Shown here piece by piece: positions 26,554 to 42,038 of a stretch of DNA of 54,400 nt. A model generated the notes under the pieces. The model saw only the letters and a list, made by a program, of their open reading frames with translations. It had not been told where the DNA came from and ran no database searches. The DNA comes from Frankiaceae bacterium (lineage in GTDB: Bacteria > Actinomycetota > Actinomycetes > JADGOV01): contig JADGOV010000008.1 of NCBI GenBank assembly GCA_017882785.1, positions 1 to 54,400 on the forward strand, read 5' to 3'. The position numbers and the translations under genes are program-made. The first letter of the stretch is position 1, and the number at the start of each line of letters is the position of its first letter.

Positions 26554-26873
26554 GTCGCACCCGCCAGCACCGACTGGACGCCACGGGCGAACGACCGCCA
26601 CTGGGCACGCTTGGCCGCCAGCGCACGGTTGCCGGCCGTGGTGATCTCATACACCCGGCGGCGACGCTCTCCGCCGTCCTGCCACTGGCTCACCACCAGT
26701 CCCGTTCCCTCCAGCCGGTGCAGGGCCGGATAGACCGTCCCCTCCGGCAGGTCGAAGACCCCGTCGGAGGCGGCTCGCAACCGCGAGATCACCGCATAGC
26801 CGTGGGCCGGCCCGTCTGTCAGCACGCAGAGCAGCAGGAGGTCGAGCTGCCCCCTGGCGTGATCCTGTCTCAT
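26550..26873 (-). CDS. PadR-family transcriptional regulator
   Basis: This 107-residue protein is a typical short PadR regulator: LDLLLLCVLTDGPAHGYAVI, the wing region LPEGTVYPALHRLEGTGLVV and the C-terminal RRRRVYEITTAGNRALAAKR. PadR proteins usually repress an adjacent membrane protein or efflux gene and their own gene. Here the downstream partner is broken. An 18-base palindrome sits on the start codon (26873-26890), so the gene is probably autoregulated and the transcript may be leaderless; I see no ribosome site. ATG at 26873 is chosen from the family's usual N terminus. The gene upstream on the same strand ends 61 bases before the start. Confidence 0.93.
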   Translation of the reverse strand: MRQDHARGQLDLLLLCVLTDGPAHGYAVISRLRAASDGVFDLPEGTVYPALHRLEGTGLVVSQWQDGGERRRRVYEITTAGNRALAAKRAQWRSFARGVQSVLAGAT

Positions 26874-26890
26874 ACCTAGAAGTCTAGGTA
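26873..26890. promoter_or_regulatory. PadR operator palindrome on its own start codon
   Basis: TACCTAGA-AG-TCTAGGTA is a perfect inverted repeat with eight-base arms and a two-base centre. It begins at the first base of the padR start codon and extends upstream. It is markedly A/T-rich against its surroundings. Position and symmetry fit a dimeric PadR repressor site that would block both transcription and a leaderless start. Confidence 0.65.
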
Positions 26891-26934: not shown

Positions 26935-27588
26935 TCACCACGGGGGGTCGGGCCGGTGCTCGTCGAGCCGGCCGCCCCGACGGCAGCCGACCGAGCGGTA
27001 GGCGGCGGGCATGAACGGGTAGCTCGATCGCCAGTAGCGCACGGCGACGAGCCGCGCGGCCGCCGGTGGCGCGCCCAACAGCCTGGCCAACTCGGCGTCC
27101 CGCTGCACGGCCGCGCACTCCGCGAGCGCCTCGTCGGCAATGTTGCGCATGTGCATCGACTCATGCGCCAACACGTGCACCGCGCCGACTTCGGCCGGCG
27201 TGGGATCACGCTTGGCCGAGCGCATGTAGGCCGCGAGAGCCTGGCATTGATCACGTTTGATCAAGGTTTGGTGCTCGAGCCGACCGTCCGCGCCGTAGCG
27301 GACGAAGCCCAGTTCGGTGCCGTCGTCCAGGGCGGCGCTGCCGAGGGCCTGGCAGTGCACCGAGACCGGAATGCCGACCAGCGCCGAGGCCGCCCGGTCC
27401 AGCCGGCGCTCTTCCCGGCTGCGCAACATCCCCGGCGCCGAGGCACCGACCGTCATCGCCCCCAGCAGCACCATGCTGATCCAGGGGAAGGCCCGCCGGC
27501 GGCCAAGCTGGTCGACCCGGCGCAGCCACCAGCGCACCACGACGGCGAGCGCGCCGAGAGCAGATCCCCATGCCAGCCAATCCAGCAC
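26935..27588 (-). CDS. Putative membrane-anchored HExxH metallopeptidase of unknown function
   Basis: I do not recognise a named family. The protein (about 217 residues) has two membrane segments near the N terminus (LDWLAWGSALGALAVVV and FPWISMVLLGAMTVGASAP), separated by a short basic loop, and a soluble C-terminal domain. This domain contains VHVLAHESMHMRNIADEALAEC: the HESMH zinc-protease motif followed seven and eleven residues later by glutamates, so a gluzincin-like site is possible. Four cysteines (HCQALGS, RDQCQAL, AECAAVQ, VGCRRGG) could form disulfides if the domain is outside. Similar HE-x-x-H proteins occur in actinobacteria as hypotheticals. GTG 27588 is preferred; TTG 27594 is the alternative. 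It lies between the aldehyde dehydrogenase gene and padR. Confidence 0.65.
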   Translation of the reverse strand: MLDWLAWGSALGALAVVVRWWLRRVDQLGRRRAFPWISMVLLGAMTVGASAPGMLRSREERRLDRAASALVGIPVSVHCQALGSAALDDGTELGFVRYGADGRLEHQTLIKRDQCQALAAYMRSAKRDPTPAEVGAVHVLAHESMHMRNIADEALAECAAVQRDAELARLLGAPPAAARLVAVRYWRSSYPFMPAAYRSVGCRRGGRLDEHRPDPPW

Positions 27589-27672
27589 CGTCAAGGTCTC
27601 GGCGCATTGGCCCTGTTCCTGACTGCTCCGACTGGTGCGACGCGTACTTCTCCGCCGGCCGGGCTGCGGCCG

Positions 27673-40904: not shown

Positions 40905-41789
40905 CTACTCGTGCGAATCGGAGAGCTTGGCGCGCAGTTGTAGGACCGCCTTGGTGTGCATCTGACAGATGCGGGACTCGGTCACTCCGAGAACTTGGCC
41001 GATCTCGGCCAGGGTCAGGCTCTCGTAGTAATACAGCGTGACCACGATCTTCTCCCGCTCGGCCAGCGTATTGATGGCCTTGGCCAGGAGGTACTTCGTC
41101 TCCTCCGACTCGAACGTGGCCACCGGGTCTTCTGCCTTGGTGTCCTCGAGGGTGTCCACCAAGGCGAGGCGGTCACTGCGGTCACCTCCGACGTTGAGCA
41201 ACTCGTCCAGGGCAACGACGTTGACGAAGGAAACCTGGGCGAAGATCGCTCGCAGGTCCTCCGTCGTGATACCGAGCTCCGCAGCCACCTCCGGTTCACC
41301 CGGCGTCCGCCGTAGCCGGGCCTCGAGGGTGGCGTAGGCACGTTCCACCTCACGAGCCTTGAAACGGACCGATCTCGGGATCCAGTCAATCGAGCGCAAC
41401 TCATCGATGATGGCGCCCTTGATCCGGCTTATTGCGTAGGTTTCGAACTTGATGGACCGGGTTATGTCAAACTTGGTGATGGCGTCCATCAGGCCGAAGA
41501 TTCCATAAGAAACAAGGTCTGATTGCTCGATGTTCGGGGGCAGACCGACCCCGACCCGACCGGCGACGTACTTCACCAACGGTGAGTAGTGCAAGATGAG
41601 CCGCTCACGCAGCGCGGGATCCTCGGTCTCCTTGTAGGACCGCCAGAGCTCCTGCAATGCCAGATCCACGTCCGCCCGCGGCTTCATCGTGGGGTAGTCG
41701 TTTGCGGTCGCGGTCGACACATCGCTCCCCCCGGAGACGGCAAACGCACCCGAAGCCGAGCCGTCAGGCTCGGAGGTGGGCACGCTCAT
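40905..41789 (-). CDS. whiG: RNA polymerase sigma factor, WhiG/FliA family
   Basis: This 294-residue sigma-70 family factor is of the FliA/WhiG type. Region 2 starts at [20 protein letters not shown] and contains [18 protein letters not shown]. Region 3 includes [20 protein letters not shown]. Region 4 ends with [20 protein letters not shown] and [12 protein letters not shown]. In Streptomyces WhiG drives early sporulation genes and in motile actinomycetes the homologue drives flagellar genes; no target is in this window. The first ~40 residues are a variable leader. ATG at 41789 has GAGG nine bases upstream; the open frame beyond is rejected. An inverted repeat lies in its promoter region. 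Confidence 0.93.
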
Positions 41790-42038
41790 GAGTTCGGCCT
41801 CAGCTGTAGGCGGTGACACCGGTGTGGAACTCTGTGCTTGATAGCGTAGCGTCACCGAGCAGTTCCTGAACGCTACTCTCAGTCCCCGTGCCGGCAAGGA
41901 CGGTCCTGGCCGCGCGGCCGGCCAGTAAGCTGATTCGTGCCCGTCGCCCCTATGGGGATTCTCGCTGGGCTCGGTCAGAGTCACAGGCCCCGGCAGGCCT
42001 GCAGATCTGGGCGGCCGGAATGGCCGGTCTGGCCTCGT

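Follow-up and report, generated by a model that had tools for sequence, protein, structure and literature searches.

A conserved actinomycete family of membrane-anchored HExxH proteins and its probable link, by way of a WhiG/FliA-type promoter, to type IV pili

Introduction

What might a small membrane protein with a zinc-peptidase motif do when it has no named relatives and no informative neighbours? The question is raised by a gene on the minus strand (26935..27588) of a 54,400-nucleotide stretch of a Frankiaceae bacterium contig (JADGOV010000008.1), referred to in its entirety as the window. Its open reading frame encodes 217 residues from a GTG codon, which fits the length of most homologues; an alternative TTG start would give a reading frame of 26935-27594. 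The protein contains AHESMHMRNIADEALAEC, in which HESMH occupies residues 142-146 (27151..27165, minus strand). An earlier note had drawn attention to this motif and to a glutamate seven or eleven residues further on, and both are present as E153 (27130..27132, minus) and E157 (27118..27120, minus), in the arrangement HESMH-x6-E-x3-E-C. Four conserved cysteines (C79, C115, C158 and C202) complete the set of residues discussed below.

The same note placed the gene between a catabolic dehydrogenase and padR, with no obvious link to either. The flanks are as described, with an aldehyde dehydrogenase gene upstream and padR downstream, both named from the translations of their reading frames, and in the loci of homologues neither is conserved as a neighbour of the family gene. 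The statement that no link is apparent thus holds for the immediate neighbours, but it missed a connection to type IV pili, fibres that the cell extends from its surface and can retract, which runs through a promoter of the WhiG/FliA type. Separately, a perfect inverted repeat (TACCTAGA-AG-TCTAGGTA) at 26873-26890 overlaps the apparent start of padR and is likely a padR autoregulatory operator.

Results

The HExxH membrane protein is a real, conserved family. It was found in 29 of 393 genomes of the class, the source genome included; this count is the 30 matching genomes minus one (L031) whose match reads, from its sequence, as a CorA-like false positive and was dropped from the family. A search of 396 genomes across the phylum gave 9 with a match, of which three were distant, and degenerate patterns derived from alignment A2 identified 16 loci in named records, about half of which were contigs already covered by the 393-genome search. 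The carriers found by pattern were uncultured Frankiales, Frankiaceae, Acidothermaceae, other actinomycetes and Cellulomonas alba. Plasmids gave no match, and a scan of genome contigs with the single protein as query found nothing.

Conservation was examined in an alignment (A1) of 28 sequences, from which one homologue with an in-frame TAG (L008) was excluded; a C-terminal fragment devoid of HExxH (L146) was also dropped. C79, C115, H142, E143, H146, E153, E157 and C202 are invariant in A1; 90% or more of its members also share G149 and C158, and L018 has tryptophan at position 158. The earlier note had named wide loss of the histidines among homologues as grounds for abandoning a zinc-peptidase reading, and no such loss was seen, since HExxH is retained together with the first glutamate (+7) in all 43 distinct motif segments. 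At +11 the other glutamate occurs in 42 of the 43, the exception being the distant relative L145, which has asparagine there. Because E153 is constant and E157 is replaced in L145, E153 is indicated as the third ligand of a predicted zinc site, in which H142 and H146 would be the other ligands and E143 the general base, with E157 as a second-shell residue of the E-x3-E helix. At +3 from the second histidine every motif segment has a glycine except that of the window protein, which has N149. The same motif also occurs in longer proteins of four distant relatives (L142, L143, L144 and L145), among which L144 is a lipoprotein-like secreted form and L142 and L145 share one genome.

That the protein belongs to no named family was borne out: it matched no Pfam or NCBIfam family above the curated cut-off, and a sequence search of the PDB was likewise without a match. 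None of 20 relatives scanned singly against Pfam exceeded a curated cut-off, and when all 28 members were used in profile scans the E-values were weak throughout. DUF5860, suggested by a match of L030, is not named as a relative, as it gave four sub-threshold matches in 50 genomes, one of which was the L030 gene itself. Matches to AurF, DUF4131, PrgI and acylphosphatase were set aside because they were weak or limited to the membrane helices. DUF3810 (PF12725), which has an HExxHxxGxxxE-like motif, produced weak profile matches over the HExxH region of L023 and L024 (best E 0.18, far below the cut-off), and we treat it as a lead rather than as evidence of membership. Among the matches listed in literature searches on actinobacterial type IV pili, WhiG and metalloproteases, no title or beginning of an abstract described the family. 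The motif may mark out a family of peptidases that neither Pfam nor NCBIfam contains.

The two N-terminal helices proposed earlier are found both in the full-length AlphaFold2 model (mean pLDDT 93.1, pTM 0.84), which places helices at residues 2-22 and 36-71 ahead of a folded domain, and in the hydropathy profile. The first membrane helix corresponds to residues 2-22 (27523..27585, minus) and the second, within the longer predicted helix, to residues 36-56 (27421..27483, minus), preceded by a loop rich in lysine and arginine. In all 28 members this loop has two or more K/R and no more than two D/E. By the positive-inside rule, K/R-rich loops sit on the inner side of the membrane; the loop is therefore placed inside and the domain outside, in agreement with the external location that the earlier note had suggested. 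Such a placement would fit the four conserved cysteines, which occupy near-invariant positions and probably form disulfides.

Modelled alone, the domain (residues 53-217; 26938..27432, minus) was again predicted with confidence (pLDDT 93.0, pTM 0.90). HExxH lies on a helix of residues 131-147 and E153 opens the next, 153-161, so that the model, as far as its helix assignment goes, gives no indication of the histidines and the glutamate being far apart, an arrangement which the earlier note had raised as an objection to its own proposal. The profile search and structure prediction recommended there led, respectively, to no named family and to a model whose structural neighbours are mostly gluzincins. 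Foldseek returned no match to the model at E 0.001. In a structural second look with VIA-align 2, rows 1-20 were zinc peptidases or peptidase-like entries, mostly gluzincins, led by the M1 enzyme 3cia (Z 7.1, rmsd 3.0, 120 aligned) and including BepA (6sar; Z 6.4, rmsd 3.9, 120 aligned), abylysin (4jiu; Z 5.5, rmsd 3.6, 93 aligned) and selecase (4qhj; Z 5.5, rmsd 4.3, 101 aligned), every Z being below 8, a range for which the tool warns that an arrangement may simply be a common one. ERAP2, DPP III, aminopeptidase N, IRAP, ERAP1 and an M61 entry (Z 4.8) were also among the top rows, as were 3o0y and 3iuk, two uncharacterised entries that we take to be peptidase-like; the first unrelated structure stood at rank 21 (Z 4.6). 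A gluzincin-like fold of the external domain is thus well supported by the models, if not proven, at Z values that all fall below 8, and the conserved catalytic residues and nearest structures are consistent with the compatibility with a zinc peptidase that was claimed from the motif.

The connection to type IV pili emerged upstream of the gene. In most homologues GCCGAT stands 14-15 nt ahead of the start codon; of 37 non-identical homologues, 24 have it in the preceding 100 nt, compared with 589 of 7400 random windows (8.0%). The consensus of the family sites, CTCAAG-N15-GCCGAT, is of the sigma-28 class (FliA/WhiG), to which WhiG is assigned in a study of Rubrobacter (PMC8325347). A promoter of the TAAA / GCCGATAA class, as the WhiG/FliA regulon requires, is accordingly found at the level of the family, the copy in the window being weak when taken alone.

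A matrix built from 26 family sites, applied to the sequence upstream of pilM, reached at least 14 bits in 15 of the 20 genomes that carry the family and in 4 of the 5 that lack it, against 2.96% of 2500 controls; five of 30 PilM loci had been dropped for want of a readable start motif, and L067, at a contig edge, was scored as a miss here and omitted from the reverse test. To avoid circularity, the matrix for that reverse test was built from 24 pilM sites only. With it, 26 of 37 homologues scored at least 8 bits (11 fell below), versus 5.5% of 3700 controls; a score of at least 12 bits was reached by 15 of the 37 and by 0.9% of controls.

The candidate WhiG/sigma-28-type promoter of the window gene lies at 27597..27622 (minus strand), with TCAGG at 27618-27622 and GCCGAGA at 27597-27603, 15 nt before the GTG codon and in the same position as in the homologues. 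It is degenerate, both in GCCGAGA and in a spacer shorter by one base, and its 5.3 bits under the pilM-trained model, a score reached by 13% of control windows, are not significant alone. The promoter claim is strong for the family, but weak for the window copy, where position and kinship are what it rests on.

Searching nine genomes with the strict pattern CTCAAG-N15-GCCGAT yielded 27 sites, spread over eight of them, and none with reversed-pattern controls. Twelve of these sites precede pilus genes (pilM 5, recognised by start and profile; PilT-family ATPases 5, recognised by TIGR01420; prepilin-like genes 2), four precede GGDEF/EAL genes and three roadblock genes, with one NIT-HAMP gene and seven others making up the remainder. 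The source genome had no strict CTCAAG-N15-GCCGAT site; strict promoter patterns were absent from the window and numbered 9 sites in the source genome versus 4 for the control. The roadblock/LC7 proteins concerned (L191, L195 and L204) have the strict WhiG-type promoter in common with pilus genes, a sharing which hints that they could be a pilus partner resembling MglB. The targets of the strict sites match what has been published for WhiG in Rubrobacter, whose regulon includes type IV pili as well as c-di-GMP enzymes (PMC8325347).

A FliA/WhiG-type sigma factor gene is present in the window itself (40905..41984, minus; profile match 40920-41600, TIGR02479, 275.5 bits against a cut-off of 189.6), next to a gene named dprA from its translation. 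A flagellar role, which the sigma-28-type promoter had brought to mind, was rejected, as the source genome is without a Flagellin_N match; the sigma gene of such a genome more likely serves pili or development. PilM and PilT are both present in the source genome. Across a sample of 50 genomes, the 21 negatives of which were the first listed non-matching genomes of the class plus G245 and were unmatched, Fisher tests that ignore relatedness associated the family with PilT (29/29 family-positive versus 9/21 negative genomes, p 2.4e-6), with a WhiG/FliA sigma factor at E <= 1e-45 (27/29 versus 12/21, p 0.0044) and, weakly, with PilM (21/29 versus 9/21, p 0.045). At one locus (L014, G119:C183), a second FliA-like sigma gene (161 bits, below the cut-off) immediately precedes the family gene, in the same orientation.

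Gene order added little to this picture. No conserved neighbourhood was found across clades and no conserved neighbour was a pilus gene; neighbours differ by clade, with topoisomerase-like genes in one and DegV-like and comEA/comEC-like genes in another.

Discussion

We consider it probable, with some reserve, that the protein is an external, membrane-tethered zinc endopeptidase belonging to a WhiG/FliA regulon that also takes in the genes for type IV pili and for c-di-GMP enzymes. This reading builds on the conservation of the family, the confident prediction of its fold, the type of promoter in its homologues and its co-occurrence with PilT, all of which were observed. The catalytic domain would stand outside the cell membrane, tethered by the membrane helices, with zinc presumably held by the two histidines of HExxH and by E153, while E143 would serve catalysis as general base and E157 would back the site from the second shell. 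In the source organism as in its relatives, the gene would be expressed under a WhiG/FliA-type sigma factor along with the pilus and c-di-GMP genes, and the peptidase could then trim, release or clear pilus or surface proteins during pilus production, a choice of substrate that is a guess.

The protein could instead be a general zinc peptidase of envelope housekeeping which, like BepA or HtpX, degrades misassembled exported proteins and shares the WhiG promoter only through the secretion load of pilus making. The presence of BepA among the nearest structures (Z 6.4) and neighbours that vary by clade, as would be expected of a stand-alone gene, both agree with such a role. A narrow spread (29 of 393 genomes of the class) and, among the tested genomes, confinement to PilT carriers (29/29) argue against it, and we regard it as unlikely. 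Somewhat less likely still is a metal-binding protein that is not a peptidase, for example a zinc sensor or chaperone that has retained the zincin site: a shared fold shows no function and catalysis here is a prediction, but all 43 segments retain E143 as well as the ligands, and a site that only bound metal would have no need of this general base. That the enzyme serves DNA uptake and not pilus motility, working in competence alongside ComEA/ComEC and the pilus, is suggested by the loci of one genus in which the gene adjoins and diverges from a ComEA/ComEC-like pair named by sequence inspection (L021, L023 and L024, with a matching stretch in L027); we give this little credence, as the arrangement is confined to that genus and the promoter motif there lies on the side of the family gene. 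Finally, a di-iron, ferritin-like oxygenase related to AurF is hardly credible, its weak profile matches over the HExxH region, seen in two of the 28 members with an E of 0.002 at best, scoring 17.8 bits against a curated cut-off of 29.6 and the model having strands besides helices and zinc peptidases as its structural neighbours.

If the protein is a membrane-tethered zinc endopeptidase, its site would resemble two known groups without coinciding with either. The gluzincins that superpose best (M1 aminopeptidases, DPP III of M49, BepA of M48 and the minigluzincins abylysin and selecase) likewise carry HExxH on one helix and the glutamate on the next, but the family differs in being anchored by two membrane helices, in having no sequence similarity to them that we could find, and in a gap of only six residues from HExxH to the glutamate, which is less than in the familiar gluzincins. 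The metzincin motif, HExxHxxGxxH, turns at its glycine, a position that the family glycine at +3 matches in all motif segments but that of the window protein. In metzincins the third ligand is a histidine or aspartate at +6, whereas that of the family would be a glutamate at +7, and metzincins appeared only low in the structural list (MMP-11, 1hv5, Z 2.5). One could go further and propose a new peptidase family whose compact site, HExxHxxGxxxExxxEC, combines a turn of the metzincin type with the glutamate helix of gluzincins, and which acts as a c-di-GMP/WhiG-controlled surface sheddase of actinomycetes, freeing cells from surfaces by cleaving adhesins or type IV pilins; this extended version is speculative and, as a whole, improbable. 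Elsewhere, such a surface-release role is filled by LapG.

Two published systems are instructive here. In the RsiG-(c-di-GMP)-WhiG regulon of Rubrobacter, WhiG-type promoters precede type IV pilus and GGDEF/EAL genes, as they do here, but no such peptidase is named in the accessible portion of that report (PMC8325347). In Clostridioides difficile, the c-di-GMP-controlled metalloprotease PPEP-1 can free cells from surfaces and pili are also under c-di-GMP control (PMC11477304). PPEP-1 thus resembles the proposed role of the family as a metalloprotease acting outside the cell, but it is secreted, of a different family and controlled by a riboswitch, so that the parallel is one of analogy only (PMC11477304).

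In summary, our results extend the WhiG-pilus link, published for Rubrobacter, to many other actinomycetes, and they offer a concrete prediction that specifies the promoter and the presumed catalytic residues, with a named strain, Cellulomonas alba MW4 (L046), that carries the gene. The type IV pili of Gram-positive actinomycetes have received little attention, and an external peptidase dedicated to them within their sigma-factor regulon would, if true, be a new component of these systems.
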